From positions 1,308,501-1,372,500 of the forward strand of contig NC_082421.1 in the NCBI RefSeq assembly GCF_004011695.2: a DNA stretch of 64,000 bases, written 5' to 3'. Shown here piece after piece: positions 10,348-21,480 of the stretch. The notes beneath the pieces were generated by a model, which saw nothing but the letters and a program-made list of their open reading frames with translations, was not told the origin of the DNA and did not search any database. The stretch's first letter is position 1, and every line of letters starts with the position of its first letter. Source of the DNA: Ascochyta rabiei (Eukaryota; Ascomycota; Dothideomycetes; Pleosporales; Didymellaceae). The position numbers and the translations under genes are program-made.

Positions 10348-11827
10348 ATGTCTACGACGGTTGTCCTCGGCGCCCAATGGGGCGACGAAGGCAAGGGCAA
10401 ACTCGCCGACATCCTCGCCAACGAATCCCAATTATGCTGCCGCGCTCAGGGTGGTAACAACGCCGGACACACTATCGTCGCCAATGGTGTCACATACGAC
10501 TTCCACATCCTCCCATCTGGCCTCGTCAACCCGAGCTGCATTAACGTCATCGGCAGCGGCTGCGTCGTCCATGTTCCTAGCTTCTTCAAGGAGCTGGAGG
10601 CATTGGACAAGCACGGCCTAGACACCAAGGACCGCATATACATCTCCGACAGGGCACACGTCGTTTTCGACATTCACCAGTTGGTTGATGGCCTGGAGGA
10701 GGTCGAGCTCGGTGGTGGAAACATTGGTGGGCATTCTTTTGAACAAATACGGGGAGAAGTGCTGACATTTTAATCTCAGGCACCACAAGGAAGGGCATTG
10801 GTTAGTGCTGAGTCATTCCAGATACCTGAGCCTTAGATGACTAACGTACTGCAGGCCCAGCATACAGCTCCAAGATGACCAGGAGCGGTCTCCGTATGTG
10901 CGACCTCTTTGATGAGAAGGTTTTCGAGCAGAAGCTCCGCCGTGTCGCAGCAGGCTACCAAAAGCGCTTTGGTGATCTGCTCAAGTACGACGTCGAAGAG
11001 GAAATCGCAAGGTACAAGGTAGGGACGGCATCTACCCACATTGGGCCTTGCAAAACTGACATGATCTCCTAGGACCTCCGCGAGAAGGTTGCACCCTACG
11101 TTGTCGACCAAGTCCCCCTCCTCGCGTCCGCCAAGGAGAAGAACGCAAAGATCCTGGTTGAGGGAGCCAACGCCCTTATGCTCGACATCGACTATGGCAC
11201 ATATCCCTTCGTCACGTCCTCGAACACCGGTCTTGGAGGCGTCATCACAGGTCTCACTCTGGGATGGCGCTCGATCAAGGAGGTCATTGGTGTAGTGAAG
11301 GCATACACGACCCGTGTCGGATCGTAAGCTCGCTACGTCATCATATCTGAATGAGCACACTAACACAATACAGTGGTCCCTTCCCCACAGAACAGCTGAA
11401 CGAGTTCGGCGAGAAGCTCCAGAAGGTTGGTCACGAAGTTGGTGTCACCACTGGTCGCAAGCGTCGTTGCGGTTGGCTCGATCTCGTTGTCCTCAAGCAC
11501 TCGCACGCTTGCAACGACTACACCTCGCTCAACCTTACTAAGCTTGATGTCCTCGACGACTTCGAGGAGCTCAAGATCGCAACTTCTTACTCGCACAAGG
11601 GTCAGAAGCTCGAAGGCTTCCCCTCGAATCCTGATGTCCTGGCCGAGGTTGAGGTTCACTACGAGACTCTGCCTGGATGGAAGAAGCCCACGACTGGTGC
11701 AAAGAGCTACTACGACCTACCCAGCCAAGCGAGGGAGTACATCGAGTACATTGAGAAGTTCGTTGGCGTCAAGGTCAAGTGGATTGGTGTTGGACCTGCG
11801 CGTGATCACATGGTCGTCAGATCGTGA
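10348..11827 (+). CDS. ADE12: Adenylosuccinate synthetase
   Basis: Predicted 422 aa from five exons (10348-10726, 10780-10800, 10855-11018, 11073-11323, 11374-11827); one exon is only 21 nt. The enzyme makes adenylosuccinate from IMP, aspartate and GTP, the first committed step from IMP to AMP, in the cytosol. The N-terminal GTP-binding signature [14 protein letters not shown] (residues about 8-21) contains the catalytic Asp and the P-loop. QGGNNAGHT follows at about 34-42. [20 protein letters not shown] matches the second family signature. [11 protein letters not shown] near the C-terminus is the aspartate/GTP region. Length equals that of other fungal enzymes and no residue appears to be missing. 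Symbol is the yeast name. Confidence 0.97.
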
Positions 11828-12284: not shown

Positions 12285-13197
12285 ATGGGCAAAGATCATC
12301 CTGACGCAAACCTCCACCCAGAGGCAACCGGGCTAGCAGCGAAGACCGTGCAGGTGGGCCAATGCAAATCCACTTGCCGTCCCAGTATGTTGATGGGCTC
12401 TAGGCACATTCCGCAGAGAACGATCTAAAGCTGTACTCTGGCTGGTTCTGTCCCTTTGTCCAGCGCGTCTGGATCGCACTTGAAGAAAAGGGTATTCAAT
12501 ACCAGTACATCGAAGTGAATCCATACCACAAGCCGCAATCCCTCCTGGATCTCAATCCACGCGGCCTCGTACCGACACTGCAGTACCAGGGCAAGCCGTT
12601 GTACGAGAGCACAGTACTTTGCGAGTTCCTGGAAGAAGCCTACCCGGACCACACGCCAAAGCTACTTCCCGACGATCCATACCTGCGCGCACGGACTAGG
12701 ATCTGGACTGATTGTGAGATGTTCAAGTTCTCTAGAGATAGACATGGTTACTGACAGCTGCAGATGTCGGGTCTCGGATTATCCCCGCCTACCACCGCTT
12801 TCTGCAGCACCAGGGCGAGGATGGCCTCAAGGAGAAGCAGACCGCGTTCCTCAACCACCTCAAGGAGTTCACCAGCGAGATGGATCCCGAGGGCCCTTTC
12901 TTCCTCGGCAAGGAGTTCAGCTTGATTGATATTGTGATTGCGCCCTGGGCCAACCGTCTCTGGGTGTTCGACCACTTCAAGGGCGGGTCCGGCATTCCGG
13001 AGGAGGGACGGGGTGGTAATTTCGAAGAAGTCTGGAAACGCTGGAGGAAGTGGTTGAGTGCGGTGGAGAGCAGGAAGAGTGTCAAGGAGACGCTGAGCGA
13101 CAGGGAGCATTACTTGCCTATCTATGGCCGCTATGCGAGAGATGAGGCACAGTCGGAGGCTGCGAAGGCTATCAGAGCTGGAAGGGGTATTCCCTAG
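12285..13197 (+). CDS. Omega-type glutathione S-transferase
   Basis: Predicted 270 aa from three exons (12285-12353, 12404-12713, 12764-13197; both introns 50 bp). The thioredoxin-fold N-domain has GWFCPFVQRVWIALEEKGI with the catalytic cysteine C39 in a CPF motif, as in omega-class enzymes, rather than the Tyr or Ser of other classes. NPRGLVPTLQY and YESTVLCEFLEE follow (glutathione contact region with the conserved ESTVLCE). The alpha-helical C-domain contains FSLIDIVIAPWANRLWV. Members reduce dehydroascorbate, glutathionyl adducts and mixed disulfides; the exact substrate cannot be told. It converges on the SKI3 C-terminal piece with only 195 bp between the stop codons. Confidence 0.92.
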
Positions 13198-13392: not shown

Positions 13393-16300
13393 TCAGGCGC
13401 TTTGCAAGCACTCAACAAGCCCGCTCCAGCCGTCCTTGCTCCACGGTGCGAGGACAATCGCTCTCTGCGCATCACCCGCGTCGCCAGTTGCAGCCATAGC
13501 ACTAGCCAGACCGACAGCGCTGAGAGTGCCGTTCGGCGGTGCGTTTCTACGAGCAGTCTCCTTTGCGAGCGTACTAGCAAACACATCGCCACCAGCCGCA
13601 TCAGCCAGCTCTGACCAGCCTGTGTGCTTCCAGGGCGCGAGCACGACGCTTCGTCGCGCTTCGTCGAGCTCTTGGTCTGCACCGCCGAGGCTGATGGAGA
13701 TGGCTTCGACTATCTTCTCGATGCGTGCAAGCTGCTCGTCAGTAAGGGTTTTGTCGGTGCGCAGGCGGTCGAGGTCATCCTTGATGACTTCCATGGTTTC
13801 GAGATCGTCGTCTAGGACAGTCATTGCGCCGACGAGCGTGAGGATGCCGACGTGTGACTCGTGCTTCTCGGAGGCGGTGAAGAGCTGTTCACGCGCGACC
13901 TGTCTTTCGTTGTCGCCTCCCTTTGCCCAGAGCACCTCTGCGAGCAGGCAGATAATGTCTGGGTGAGACCCTGTGGCTTCGAGCGATGTGCGGAAGTAAG
14001 GTAGCGCTGCATCAAGTGCACCGCTGAAGTAGTGTGCGAGACCGGCGGTAAGGCGAGCGGACAACCGTATTTTGTCAAGTTGCTCGGCAGACAAGATCGA
14101 CTGGCCAGTGTCACCTTCAAGCTCAGCCATGAGGTCCAACGCAGTCTCTGCCTCCTCTACCGCGGAGTCATTTGAACCTAGCGCAAGTTGGTTCCGCGCA
14201 AGATCGTTCTTCGCTTGGACAATACGCGCAAGAGCAGGTAAAGCCTCAGACTTCTCGTACTCTTGTTCGGCAGCTTCGGAAACAGCCTGTAGAGCGGCCA
14301 CCGAAGCGTCGTAATTACCGACTCGCTCCAGGAACAGCGCTGCGAGATGCTTGTGCGATAGGTCGTATGGTACCTGACGGTTGAGCTGCTGGAGAGCGAA
14401 CAGTGGCTGTATCAGATTGACGATCGTGTTCGAAGATGACGGTGATGACACAAGGAAGTCGAACGCCGAGACTGCATACTGTCGCTTGGTCAGGAGTAAC
14501 GAGGAATCTGACAACTCGAACGCATGCGTGAAGTGCGCAAATGCGTCGCTCTCCTTCCCACCAAGAAGGGCGACTAATCCCATACCCACCCAGGCTAAAG
14601 CGTAATCAGGGTCTTGGGCTTGTGCGCGTCCAAATGCTGTGTCAGCAAGATGGAGGTCGTTTTGGAGTAGGTAGAGCGTGCCTAGATTTGTCCAGACGTG
14701 CACGTTGCGGTCGTTGAGATGCAGAGAACGTACGAACGCGTGCTGAGCGACCTTGGGACTGAGTGTCGTCGTTATCACGCCGAGAGAGTTCCAGAATTCA
14801 GAGTTGCCAGCTTCGAGCTCGATGGCGCGCTTGAAGCATTTCATTGCTGCTCTCAAGAAAGCTGTGAGTTTCTGCTCATCGTTCCCTTCCTGTTCCAGGC
14901 AGACGTGAGCACGGTACTCAGTCCAGCCAAGGTTGTACCATGCTACAGCCTGAGCGTGGATGTCGTGCTCGCAGCTGGCAATAGCTCGCTTTTGCGCGAG
15001 AATGGAAGCCTTCAATACCTTTGTGAGGATTGACACCTCTGTCGAAGAGAAAGTAGCGAGATCATCGTTGCCAATGTTGTCGATGTCTTTGTGTGTATCG
15101 AAGTTGACGCCAACGTCTGATTGGCTTCGCAATAAGCGCTCAACGTCTGCAGAAGGGAACTTCTCAAGCTTTTCCTGCACCCAACTGAACAAACTGCACG
15201 CATCTCCGACTGCCTTCCAGAGGTTAAATGCATCGGGCTTGTACTCTGTGACTGTGTAGGCGACCTCAATGGCTCGGATGGCGCTGTCCACGGCTTCACC
15301 GTAGAATCCGGTCTCGATGCAGTGCCAGCCCTTTTCTACGAGTGTCTGAATGAGGGCAATCGATACTCCGAACTCTTGTGACCGTTGGGAAAGAACAGCT
15401 TCGTAGCCTTGGAGTGCTTCATCATACTCGCTAAGCTCCCGGTTGACGTTTGCAAGCATATACTTGGTAAACCAGCTTTCGTTATCGGTCTTCTTCATGA
15501 TAACATCGTCTGATGGATTCTCGGCGTAGTTGAAGGCACGTTGTGCGGAGTTGTAGCGTCCAGAATTATGGTAACTCTCACCAAGACCGACATAGGAGTA
15601 GTAGTCATCTGGGCTGATGCGAAGAGCGGACAGGAATGAGATGATGCTCTGCTGGTACTCTTGCTTGTTCATTTGAACAACTCCCAATGCAGAGAACGGC
15701 CAGCTGACACCCTTCTTCTTTGAGCCTGGGGTTGGTTTTGCTTTGCCAGAGTCAACGACTCTCTGTGAGACAGCCTCAACAATATCCCATTCACCCTGAT
15801 TGGCGAACAGTCGGGCCAACCGCTCAGCTGCAACGATCTCGGACGGAGATAGTTCGAAGGCTTTCTGGAAACATTGCCTTGCTCGTTTGCGGTCCTTGTT
15901 GTAGTCCTCGTAGAATATACCAAGCAGAGTGTATGCGGGTGCATAGTTCGGGTTTGCTTTGATCGCAGCGAGAAGCCTAGCGTAAGCTCCTTGTCGGTCC
16001 TTTCGTGCAGCTTTCGAAGGGTCGAGCTCCCATATACACACACCGATCCGGTATAGAGTCTGTGCACGTAATTCTCTACCGCGTGAGTTGGATGCGTCCA
16101 TTTGTGGGTGGTCAATATAGCCTTCGAGCTTGTCCAGTCCGGCCTTATAATCGCCATCGAGTGCCTGACACCAAGCTGCTTCTGCTCCAATGCGACCATT
16201 ATCCGGGTCTTGCTTCAGGGCCTGCTCCAAGAACTCCGCGGCTTCCTTGTAATCCTCATCTTCCTCAAGTATGAGACCGAGACCAATCAGCGCAGCCGTG

Positions 16301-16985
16301 AACCTTGGTTTCCGCTTGAGTATCTCCCGGAAGATCTGTTTAGCTTCCAGGTGGTTCCTAGGCGCCTGGTAGTAAACAAGTGCTGTGGCAAGTGTACTGC
16401 TCAGCGCATCACGTGTGCTAGGCTGGTCAGTATACAGATCAGGATATCATTTTTTCAACTCAACAACCTACCGCTGGAATGACAGATCCGTCTTCTTGGC
16501 TTCGTTTGCTGCAAGCTTCAAACCTTTCCGAGTACACTCGACAGCACTCTCGTACTCTTCCAAGGAAAGATAGAAATCGCCTAATAAGACATGTGCAAGT
16601 GGTGACTTCCTGGCTTCGAGAATACCTTCCTATTCTGTGGTCAGCATAGATCTCCTCCAAGGAAGCCGGTTTCTCAGTGGTGTGATAGCCACTTTGCATA
16701 TCCCGAGACTGGAATGAGACATCAACTTTGGTTGGCACTTACTGTCATTAGGGCCAGACAGTCGTCTTGTGAGACAGGCAGATCGACGCTGAGGGATACC
16801 CCGCCTTCGCTCAGATCTGGCGCATCTCCCTTCTCTTGCGTGAGTGGATATTTCGATATGCCACTGCTCAGATATCCTGTGATAACTTTCGACAAACCCT
16901 CAGTTGGGAAGAGCTCGACATATTGCCGCAATGTGCCTATGTCGAGATCTAAGAGGTCGTGCGCACTGTCCGCATGTGACGCCAT
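13393..16985 (-). CDS. SKI3: Superkiller protein 3, C-terminal four-fifths (split gene)
   Basis: Predicted 1141 aa from three exons (16985-16743, 16629-16472, 16417-13393). The product is a TPR solenoid: repeated A-x3-G-x3-Y helices such as AYTLLGIFYEDYNKDRKRA and YSYVGLGESYHNSGRYNSA. In the Ski complex Ski3 scaffolds the Ski2 helicase and Ski8 and feeds mRNA to the cytoplasmic exosome. The first residues (DLDIGTLRQYVELFPTEGLS, from residue 10) correspond to the part of Ski3 that should follow about 290 N-terminal residues. Those residues are encoded in reverse orientation at 17314-18226. The first in-frame ATG is 16985; an open frame extends upstream without any ATG. Together the two pieces total about 1430 aa, close to full-length fungal Ski3. 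Whether this piece is expressed alone is unknown. Confidence 0.85.
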
Positions 16986-17313
16986 GACTGCTGAACTTTT
17001 CGAATCCAACTCTTTCTTAATGCAGAGCTCCGGCCAGTGCAAACACAAGTATAAACGGGACTTCTGGAGTGGTCGAACCCAGCGAACGACGCTGAGATGG
17101 TAGGTTGGTGTGATGGTATGCGGCGAGAGCGAAGTTGTGATGTTTGCGTTCCTATAGGGCTGATCGATCTCACACTAGTGCACGTCATTCATTGCCTGCT
17201 CTTCGATGAAGAGCCCCACCTAAACCTTCAACCACGACCAAATGGACTACTCACAACATCGACTCTGCCGTGTTGACGGCTCAACATCCTCACGCATATA
17301 CTAAACTACCACA
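16986..17313. promoter_or_regulatory. SKI3: Intergenic region between the two head-to-head SKI3 pieces
   Basis: This 328-bp segment lies between two divergent start codons. If the inversion reading is right, its right part (next to 17314) is the original SKI3 promoter turned around, and its left part is sequence that once lay further upstream. It could drive both fragments. No distinct TATA box was seen. Confidence 0.5.
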
Positions 17314-18226
17314 ATGTCTACCAAAACTGCGCTGAAGGCCGCCAAATCGGCGATTGATACCAAGAACTGGGAGGAGGCTATTGAGCAGGCGAATACCGTG
17401 CTTGAAAAGGACCCCAACAACTACTTCGCGAAACTTTTCTTGGGACGCGCCAATGACGGGTTGAGCAAGTACGACGATGCAGCGAGGGCTTACAATGACG
17501 CGACAAAGCTCAAGCCTGACGATGCGCAAGCATGGCTTGGATTGAGGGGCATGTACGAGGGGCTGGGCGGTCGAAATGTCGACGAGAATATTGAGGTCGG
17601 CCTGAGGCTGGCGGAGATATACGCAAATCTGTTCGTAACGCGCTCCGTGTGGCTTGAACTAGGAGCTAACAGAAGCCAGCGACGACGCCCACCGCAGCCA
17701 GTCCGCCATCGATAAGCTCGTAGACCATGCTCGCAAGCACGGCACAAAGACACAGTACGCACGCGCACTGGCCACACAGCTACCCTCTTCGCCTATATAT
17801 TCCTACCTCGAGGGGCGTCTGCCTCAGCCGTCAGCAGTATTGACGCGCATCGCCGAGATCCACGAGACACAAGAGACAGCGACGATAAAGAAGCTGATCG
17901 ATGAGCGGAGACTACGCCTAGGCGCAACACTCGACAACACCACAAAGACGGTGAAGAACGAGGTCTACGGACAGAGTCCGCTAGAGGGAATATACGAGGA
18001 AATCATCAACTGGACGAATGACGACGAGCTGAGGAGAGAATATGAGGAAAAGCTATTGGAGCGAGTTTATGATACCCTGCTTGTGCTTCCCGCAGGCCAG
18101 AAGGAGGAGAAGCGACAGAAGGTTATGAAGTTGGCACACGACATGGTGGTCATCAAGCATCCATACCACCTTGCGTGGCAGATCGAGCTTGAGTGGCGGT
18201 CAGGATTGGATGTGGAGGCGTACTAG
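17314..18226 (+). CDS. SKI3: Superkiller protein 3, N-terminal fifth (split gene)
   Basis: Predicted 287 aa from exons 17314-17630 and 17680-18226 (49-bp intron; phase-2 join gives AEIYANLDDAHRSQ). The N-terminus MSTKTALKAAKSAIDTKNWE is typical of fungal Ski3, with TPR units through LGRANDGLSKYDDAARAYND. The frame continues through GTKTQYARALATQLPSSPIY and ends with WQIELEWRSGLDVEAY before a TAG. In the family this point is followed directly by the D-x-D-x-x-x-LR-x-[YF] region, which here is found on the opposite strand at the start of the 16985-13393 gene. So the coding content seems complete but divided. The exact ancestral link sequence is uncertain. Confidence 0.85.
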
Positions 18227-18395
18227 GATAAGCCAACGAGACCTAGAATGGCGGAAGCGCATAGATTTCACGCAAACTTTGAGGCGTCACATTGGCTTCT
18301 CATATTGAACACAATATCAAGCTATTCAGAGGAACATTTCAAAACGCCAGAACTCCACCCATGCAGAATATCAATGTGATCGTCGAGCATGAAAT

Positions 18396-19020
18396 TTAAG
18401 CCTTAGACGTGGCAATAACCCTCCTCTTTTCCTCCACCGAGAACAGACTCTCGCCCTGCTTCAGCGCATGAATGAGCATGGGGATACTGTTCGCCTTGAA
18501 ATCTTGAGCTTCGCGCACTTTGTCGAGATCATCGGCCAGCTCAGTAGTAATCTTGCGGATGTAGATGGCGTCGTACTCTTCCTCTTCTTTTCCGGATGCT
18601 GCCTTGGATTTAGAGACTGGCGCCGACACGGGTGCAGGAGAGAGCGAGGGCGACGCATCGCTCATGGAAATGTCGCCATTTGAGGTCGGTGCTGGGATTG
18701 ATTTGGACCTCTTCTTCTCTTTCTTGGTGGGTGCTGGGGTGGGCTCTGGCGTGGTGTCCGCAGACTGGTATGAATCAATGACAAGTAGATTGGGGGTTTT
18801 CGTTTGGTCGCACCTCTGGCTCTGTTGAAGGGCTTTTCCTGTTCTTCTTTTGCTCTACTTCGCTGTCGCTGGAGGACTCTGAGGAGGAGACTTTGAATGA
18901 TCAGTTTTTATGTGTCGGATGCTGCGTTGTGTACGGATTTCACGCACCCTCTGTTCTTGACTTCCTCTTCTTTGACTTGCGCTTCTTCTCAACACCTCGT
19001 GGTGCCTTCTGTGCTGCCAT
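18396..19020 (-). CDS. RSA3: Ribosome assembly protein 3
   Basis: Predicted 172 aa from three exons (19020-18948, 18890-18814, 18764-18396). The lysine-rich N-terminus (GVEKKRKSKKRKSR) is a nucleolar-type basic stretch, followed by an acidic Ser-rich linker and another basic block (KKEKKRSKS). The conserved C-terminal Rsa3 domain is clear: YIRKITTELADDLDKVREAQ (about 118-137), then DFKANSIPMLIHALKQGESL and FSVEEKRRVI. In yeast Rsa3 acts in early 60S subunit assembly in the nucleolus. Length is somewhat below yeast Rsa3 (220 aa), mainly in the linker. Two introns of about 50 bp fit cleanly in phase. Confidence 0.88.
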
Positions 19021-19076: not shown

Positions 19077-20136
19077 TTAGCGGCACGTGCACGCTAGTGG
19101 CTTCTTCTCTTTTTCATCTCGTGGCTGCCATCGCCGTTTCCTTCGCGGCAGATGCATGCTCACCCCACAAAATGAACTACATACACTATCAGAGTCACGA
19201 CGGGATTTGCTTCGATGCGATGTTCTTGATTTGAATTCCATGAGTGTGGCTGCTACAGCTACTGCTATGTCGCCTGCCATGTTGTCCTCTCTCCTCCTGG
19301 GCTCATCTAAATTCTCATGGTAGAATAACAATGGTTTTGTTACCATGTCTCCGGAAACGGGAGCTGGTTGACACTCCATCGCCATAGCGCGAGATCGAAG
19401 AGAAAGTCGGACGCCCCTCCCAGCATCTAACATGCGCCGGCCACCTCTATGGGCGTAGAAGTCCACTGCCAGCCATCTTGCAGGACTTTTACTTGTAGTT
19501 CCCTCATACAGCTCGACAATCGTTTCAAAATTCAACTGGGATCGCAACGCCACGTCGGAAAGCGCCCCTTTTGGTGTTTTCGGGACCATGTTGTTGAGGA
19601 ATGATGCGGTTTTTAACCCTGGGGTCCTCGAGTTTTTCGGCAAGTACGCACAGCTGCACGAGAGTTGCCCATTCTTTTGGATCCTTTGCACTGGAGCATT
19701 TCGTCGCAATAGATCCGGAGTACGTCAGATTGACGTACAAATTGAAGACTGAAGCATTGTCCTTGAGCATCGCAATTTCCCATGGTATAGGTCCAGACTC
19801 GGCTTGCTTGACTGCGCGCACAAAGAATCCGGATCGAGACGAGAAGAGTCGTTTGTGAACTCTGAAGCTGCGCCTCCCGGACTCTATCGAACCAATGAAG
19901 ACACTGATTGTTGACGAATCGAAGCTAGCTAACTCGTCAGATGAAGTGACACATTCTGCTTGTTTCTGTAGACTTACTAGATGGCATCATGAAGGGCGAT
20001 GCGTGGGTCCCTGGTTAGCGCCCTGCTTGGGCGAAGCTACATTAGAGGCGACCTGTGAACCCAGCAGCGGACTTTTAGTGCCACCGAACATTGACGGTTC
20101 AGTTACTTTTTGTGGGCTGGAGGCTGGTTGTGCCAT
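19077..20136 (-). pseudogene. Frameshifted BTB/POZ-domain gene, tandem sister of the next gene
   Basis: The same plan as the intact neighbour at 20505-21480 is visible: Ser/Pro-rich N-terminus (MAQPASSPQKVTEPSMFGG, ATG at 20136), a phase-2 intron at 19925-19977, a BTB core (FRVHKRLFSSRSGFF, then VFNLYVNLTYSGSIATK), then KEWATLVQLCVLAEKLEDP and RWLAVDFYAHRGGRRML. The frame of the N-terminal exon and the BTB frame differ by one base somewhere between about 19985 and 20060. A second shift falls at a run of five A (19610-19614), after which homology continues in another frame to 19077. Either two real indels or sequencing errors explain this. RIP is not the cause of a frameshift. Confidence 0.65.
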
Positions 20137-20504: not shown

Positions 20505-21480
20505 TTACTCAACCCCTGCTTTTTGCTCTGTTGCCGCCGGCTTATCCGTTGCGATGACCGCCTCATGGTAGTACAAGGACGAAGTCTTGAAGGACCCCGA
20601 TGCAAAAAGTGATGAAGGACGCTTCTGCATCAGACGAACTGCAATATCGAACATAAATTCTGCTGGGTACTTGTTCTTCTCAGACAGTAACCATTCTGCG
20701 CGCCCACTCTGGACGTAGTAGTCGACAGCAAGCCTGCGCGCTGCACTATTCTCTGGTGTATGTTCGTACAGCCACGCCAAGGATGTTGCATCGATGTTGG
20801 TGCGATCTTTAGCCACTGGTGTAGATGAGAACAAGGGCAGTGTTTCCTGCAGGCAGAGGATCATGCCATCTATGGTTAGATTCTTTGTCTTGACATCCTG
20901 TAGTCTTTCGGCCAGTATGTATAGTCTGCAGAGCCAGTGCCACTCCTCGGGGCCTTTCGTCGCCAACTTGCTGGTATAGAGGAGGTTGACGTAGATGGCA
21001 AACGTCTCCGGGCGGACGTCGAGGAGATCGACACGTCGAAAGACGGCCGTGTGAAGTTTCGAAACTTCGGTCTTGAAGAACTTCGACCGATCTTTGAGGA
21101 AATCCTCATGTACATAAAAGTCTTTCTCCTTTCGAACGTGCTTTACCCGAACATGAAGGATGTTGGGAGCAAGGAAACAACTGAAGCTTTACGTCAACGC
21201 AAGTACATATTTATAGAACGTGGACTTACTCGAGAATGCTCTTGTAGGAAGTGCGTAGATCAGCTTCAGGAATATGCTGGCACTTGGACTGTAGCTCATC
21301 TCGCGTATAAGTTGGAGGCGGAGATTCAAAGACTGATCTCTTTCGCGGTTCGGGGCCACTGAATAACCTTGGAGAAAAAACGGATACTGCAGGTGGTTGT
21401 GGGTTTGATGTTACGCTTCTGCCGGAATCAGCAGTAGGTGGGGCTGAAGTGTTGGGCGGGGCTGGAGTGGTAGTTTGCAT
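20505..21480 (-). CDS. BTB/POZ-domain protein of unknown partner
   Basis: Predicted 308 aa from two exons (21480-21230 and 21180-20505; 49-bp intron, phase 2). The N-terminal 80 residues are Pro/Ser/Thr-rich and probably disordered. The BTB core runs from about residue 88: HVRVKHVRKEKDFYVHEDFL, KDRSKFFKTEVSK, VRPETFAIYVNLLYTSKLAT. The C-terminal helical region has WHWLCRLYILAERLQDVKTK and RRLAVDYYVQSGRAEWLL. This family is greatly expanded in Pleosporales and its members are presumed adaptor or dimerisation proteins; no partner can be inferred. It was evidently duplicated in tandem, the other copy being broken. Confidence 0.8.

Follow-up and report, generated by a model that had tools for sequence, protein, structure and literature searches.

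A Ski3 probably built from two chains: division of SKI3, head to head in Ascochyta rabiei and shared by related Dothideomycetes

Ski3 is the scaffold of an RNA-decay machine that is conserved between yeast and humans; its N-terminal arm in yeast reportedly binds Ski7, a point on which nothing below depends. The protein is one chain of 1432 residues in Saccharomyces cerevisiae (PDB 4buj, 5mc6) and one chain of at least 1568 residues in humans, where the arm of TTC37/SKI3 is unseparated from the rest. In two human studies, this N-terminal TPR arm (TPR 1-8) is a flexible module left unmodelled in cryo-electron microscopy structures, and mutations in SKI3 give rise to disease (PMC8860381), while SKI7 docks on the C part of SKI3, at TPR 29-30 and so away from the arm (PMC11540850). 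Gene fission, the splitting of a coding sequence in two, has been described in fungi, with inversion as one possible cause (PMC2557144). Here we describe SKI3 in a 64,000-nucleotide stretch of the Ascochyta rabiei genome (contig NC_082421.1, positions 1,308,501 to 1,372,500; the window), where it takes the form of two genes, SKI3-N and SKI3-C. In contrast with the cases in PMC2557144, the available part of which names neither Ski3 nor Dothideomycetes, this fission is an old one, lies head to head and is conserved across orders. No description of a split Ski3, and no publication on Ski3 in Pleosporales, was found in the open-licence literature, which misses most subscription papers.

The Ski3 coding capacity of the window consists of two complete genes, divided at one point and lying head to head, with start codons that point away from each other (Table 1). 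A preliminary description of this DNA had placed the N-terminal 287 residues at 17314-18226 on the plus strand and the other 1141 at 16985-13393 on the minus strand, each piece intron-bearing and open. Splicing from the window reproduced this to the base, yielding a SKI3-N product of 287 residues from two exons and a SKI3-C product of 1141 residues from three, with one and two introns respectively and an open frame from ATG to stop in both. Relatives of SKI3-N that consist of exon 2 only start at about residue 107, right behind the intron site. Each gene is single copy, with no second copy of either in the species' own 40.9-Mb assembly; an intact SKI3 elsewhere, which the preliminary description had allowed for, was likewise absent from this genome.

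Both products are Ski3 by homology. The N piece matched residues 5-296 of yeast Ski3 in sequence (5mc6 numbering, E 3.5e-24) and residues 2-298 of its fold, and it also matched the human TTC37/SKI3 arm in sequence. Exon 3 of SKI3-C matched yeast Ski3 at E 1e-89, and the C piece, searched through a 92% identical relative (P0123), covered yeast residues 400-1336 (E 9e-100), with its residues 9-50 aligning to yeast 295-336 at 2.8 bits only. The N-terminal TPR arm and the long C-terminal TPR part of Ski3/TTC37 are thus both present, but instead of sharing one polypeptide they lie on opposite strands with their own starts and stops. By alignment, the N piece appears to stop where the C piece starts in Ski3 coordinates (~295/400 in yeast), as first proposed, and both pieces have Ski3 as their best match and adjoin each other along it, rather than deriving from two different TPR genes. 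The partner helicase Ski2 is encoded in the same genome: DSHCT matches were found on C12 and on C7, and the open frame on C7 scored 307 bits to Ski2 versus 182 to Mtr4. The other DSHCT locus (L006) gave no PDB match with the one reading frame tried.

The split is not a local peculiarity: it is common to Pleosporales, Mytilinidiales, Gloniales and Zopfia. Since the length rule of the SKI3-N search admitted only proteins of ~158-502 residues, that search demonstrates the existence of stand-alone arms, not the absence of fused ones. Among the best 120 of its 165 matches, 98 were 280-304 residues long, 17 were shorter than 240 residues (mostly exon 2 alone) and 5 were others. The named sources of the stand-alone arms listed were Pleosporales of many families, with arms throughout those sampled, together with arms from Lophium mytilinum and Lepidopterella palustris (Mytilinidiales), from Glonium stellatum (Gloniales) and from Zopfia rhizophila (incertae sedis), often annotated as a protein of unknown function. 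Thirteen of the arms, on contigs shorter than 2 kb, read straight through the intron site, which would suit mRNA and was not counted as proof of expression. The SKI3-C search, in which fused proteins were admitted, returned 1535 matches, and no full-length Ski3 was among the best 120 (longest, 1243 residues).

Fused Ski3 was found in other Dothideomycetes. A padded search for long arm-bearing proteins gave 235 matches; 117 of the best 120 had at least 1338 residues, and identity was at most 61%. The named carriers among the matches listed belong to Botryosphaeriales, Dothideales, Myriangiales, Capnodiales and kin, Venturiales, Aulographales, Trypetheliales and Acrospermales (seven placements were looked up), and none of them to Pleosporales, Mytilinidiales or Gloniales. 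In Macrophomina, Phyllosticta, Aureobasidium, Venturia, Verruconis, Aulographum and Rhizodiscina, the same arm and the same C part, alignable around the cut, form a single protein, of ~1385-1440 residues in most of those listed. One full-length fungal Ski3 (P0281) is filed under the tree Carpinus fangiana and probably reflects fungal contamination of a plant assembly.

These distributions bear on whether SKI3 is truly one gene, divided by misassembly or by annotation. Long genes are often split by gene predictors, and many of the names listed stem from automatic annotation. Nevertheless, the halves are on opposite strands in the window, the same pair of proteins turns up in many assemblies, the stop behind the arm and the C part's new leader are found again in many species, and none of the best 120 C relatives is full length. 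We regard such an artefact, including the misassembly that the preliminary description had kept in reserve, as extremely improbable.

The fused proteins also locate the cut. In them, the arm's last helix (...IELEW) leads through a short stretch to a helix that is also found in the C pieces, reading ...REFVEFFP in fused proteins versus ...RQYVELFP in C pieces; this junction motif was detected in the minority of the 120 fused proteins listed that fit the letter pattern used. The cut sits behind the last helix of the arm, and no helix is missing where the two parts meet. In nearly all full arms listed, the stand-alone protein stops 3 to 15 residues past EW, with a tail of -RSGxxVEAY in most Pleosporales and a shorter one in Lophium, Glonium, Lepidopterella and Zopfia; in a model of the D. 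exigua arm, the predicted local distance difference test (pLDDT) score is <50 at residues 282-287. At the start of the C part, a MASxxDSAHD leader occurs in 62 of the 120 listed proteins, in 60 of these within the first 12 residues, and most of those without it are predictions starting further in. Across 36 aligned C pieces, mean identity was 94% in the first 12 columns versus 85% overall (invariant columns, 7 of 12 versus 438 of 1142), while the arm's last nine columns averaged 62% versus 78% overall. With leader identity above average and tail identity below it, the new leader is well preserved, unlike the new tail. The SKI3-C leader (MASHADSAH) is thus conserved above the protein mean although it was born at the fission.

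The same end state is predicted by a different route, in which an inverted duplication of SKI3 or a local transposition of the arm was followed by complementary loss, with products that work alike. The lack of a significant inverted repeat at the ends also speaks for this route. Since it requires more steps, and since the genome holds no second-copy remnant and the abutting parts lack no helices, we consider it rather unlikely.

One change of state was enough in a carefully built tree with 47 split arms and 43 fused ones (support 97/94), and likewise in a quick FastTree tree of 121 split and 120 fused arms (241 in total). Since Ski3 is fused in yeast and human, this change of state is a fission: the outgroups are fused, the split state has one origin and both halves have been retained. 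The fission predates the parting of Pleosporales from Mytilinidiales and Gloniales; the crown age of Pleosporales is put at 206 (171-254) million years in PMC7912389. The name Pleosporomycetidae was dropped for the split clade because NCBI places the fused Venturiales (Verruconis) and Aulographales (Rhizodiscina, Aulographum) there, so that the split marks only part of that subclass.

The two genes have remained neighbors. Running locus tags were available for both halves in six species (Alternaria dauci, A. incomplexa, A. rosae, Plenodomus biglobosus, P. lingam and Boeremia exigua) and were adjacent in all six; JGI-style numbers, which are not known to track gene order, were excluded from this count. 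Between the best 120 N and the best 120 C matches there were 32 contigs of equal size (smallest, 5,933 bp), equal size being a stand-in for the same contig that gives adjacency and not strand order. For one C relative (P0128), whose gene model has a 97-residue leader, leader residues 1-76 matched the minus strand of 17068-17280, antisense to SKI3-N, at 39.7 bits, compared to 28.1 bits for the top of 1000 shuffled leaders. Beside the C gene, the intergenic DNA of P0128 therefore has the same orientation, to within 33 nt of the arm start here. The other long-leader C relative (P0236) did not match the DNA between the two genes (17.7 bits, E 0.11), so head-to-head order at the DNA level in relatives depends on P0128; the same order would be expected in most of them. 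Scans of public genome and viral contig sets returned no fungal relative.

We compared arm and C-part distances in 45 of the 120 fused proteins and in 25 split species; the latter were the window and, once eight partial or near-duplicate pairs had been removed, 24 of the 32 co-housed pairs. Median arm/C ratios were taken in equal C-distance bins, and the pairs are not independent. The ratios were 1.30 (78 pairs) for split versus 1.07 (7 pairs) for fused proteins at the shortest distances, 1.14 (135 pairs) versus 1.10 (12 pairs) in the second bin and 1.10 (87 pairs) versus 1.07 (41 pairs) in the third. By these values, the split arm has stayed about as constrained, relative to the C part, as the arm of fused Ski3. 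Loss of Ski3 or of its N-terminal arm, two of the three outcomes named in the preliminary description, is at odds with two whole genes and a still conserved arm, and of the three, a two-chain Ski3 has the most support.

It is unlikely that the arm has instead quit the Ski complex for a new job and left the C piece alone in Ski2-3-8. A flexible, unmodelled arm in human SKI3 (PMC8860381, available text), a human SKI7 site off the arm (PMC11540850, available text) and the slightly raised arm ratio at short distances would fit such a departure, but the ratios otherwise resemble those of fused proteins, the genes remained adjacent, and the fold and length of the arm agree with the yeast arm throughout.

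Taken together, these data make it quite likely that an old inversion split SKI3, that its promoter now serves both halves and that a two-chain Ski3 is made. Starting from an ordinary SKI3 in the ancestor of Pleosporales, Mytilinidiales and Gloniales, an inversion of ~1.2-1.3 kb would have reversed the promoter and the arm (5' exons) in place; one of its ends would lie in the codons linking the last arm helix to the C part, the other beyond the promoter on its upstream side. The arm would have retained its promoter and start, with a stop and short tail from former upstream DNA, while the C part would have acquired a start together with a leader of 9 residues from the back side of the promoter, which would then fire both ways. 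Since promoter and arm would have turned together, both halves could be expressed from the first day, as the survival of such a change requires, and since the cut lies behind a complete helix, both chains could fold and then dock onto each other where they were once joined. The two products would fold separately and join without a peptide bond, and the resulting Ski3 would work in the Ski2-Ski3-Ski8 helicase complex that supplies RNA to the cytoplasmic exosome, with Ski2, Ski3-N, Ski3-C and two Ski8 as its expected members. The flexibility of the human arm may be why the arm tolerates separation. An inversion carrying the promoter and 5' exons had already been proposed in the preliminary description; it holds as the simplest account of the head-to-head split, while as a mechanism we still infer it. 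Short inverted repeats as its cause were rejected, since the candidate 10-bp arms (16974-16983 and 18283-18292) are at the level of chance 10-bp pairs in the same 2 kb.

Several points weigh against this account. It was reached from sequence and structure comparison; in relatives, the strand order is directly seen through P0128 only; and homology of the first C residues to the fused junction is weak by score. The C pieces of Mytilinidiales and Gloniales are beyond the best 120, such that their arms alone represent them, and FastTree support for the split branch was 84, not starred. Finally, the slightly faster evolution of the arm at the shortest distances may be real.

The locus is flanked by a plus-strand glutathione S-transferase (GST) gene that ends at 13197 and, directly downstream of SKI3-N, by a minus-strand Rsa3 (ribosome assembly 3) gene (18396-18851), which ends at 18396 tail to tail with SKI3-N and is a handy landmark for judging the inversion. 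Upstream of the GST gene are adenylosuccinate synthetase exons (10845-11827, plus strand). BTB/POZ-like open frames at 19525-19986 and 20505-21188, both on the minus strand, are possibly a tandem pair, the first slightly below and the second slightly above the Pfam cut-off.

Table 1. Features of the divided SKI3 locus (window coordinates).
Feature	Position	Strand	Basis
SKI3-N exon 1	17314..17630	+	splicing; homologues
SKI3-N intron, 49 bp, GT...AG, CTAAC branch-point-like sequence	17631..17679	+	splicing
SKI3-N exon 2, through stop codon	17680..18226	+	splicing
New C-terminal tail of arm (RSGLDVEAY + stop), in place of continuation into C part	18197..18226	+	sequence comparison; pLDDT
SKI3-C exon 1, from ATG	16743..16985	-	splicing
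New N-terminal leader MASHADSAH of SKI3-C, kept in relatives holding the start	16959..16985	-	
SKI3-C exon 2	16472..16629	-	splicing
SKI3-C exon 3, through stop codon	13393..16417	-	splicing; yeast Ski3 match
Intergenic 328 bp between both start codons, presumed shared bidirectional promoter	16986..17313	.	

Thus, Ski3 is probably assembled from two chains in these fungi, and a clade that includes crop pathogens and saprobes has kept the arm as a separate chain for ~200 million years. The arm is easily missed in annotation, since its short gene is often listed as of unknown function. The SKI3 split is a clean, dated gene fission, probably by inversion around a promoter able to serve both halves at once. 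We tentatively raise one further possibility, that the arm is detachable, with SKI3-N joining and leaving to couple and uncouple the helicase and arm-bound partners such as the ribosome or an exosome adaptor. If true, this would be a regulated five-chain Ski complex without counterpart in other eukaryotes, controlled by supply or modification of the arm. The split clade is a natural experiment on the arm's role and on the need for a covalent bond, and offers a ready-made two-chain system.
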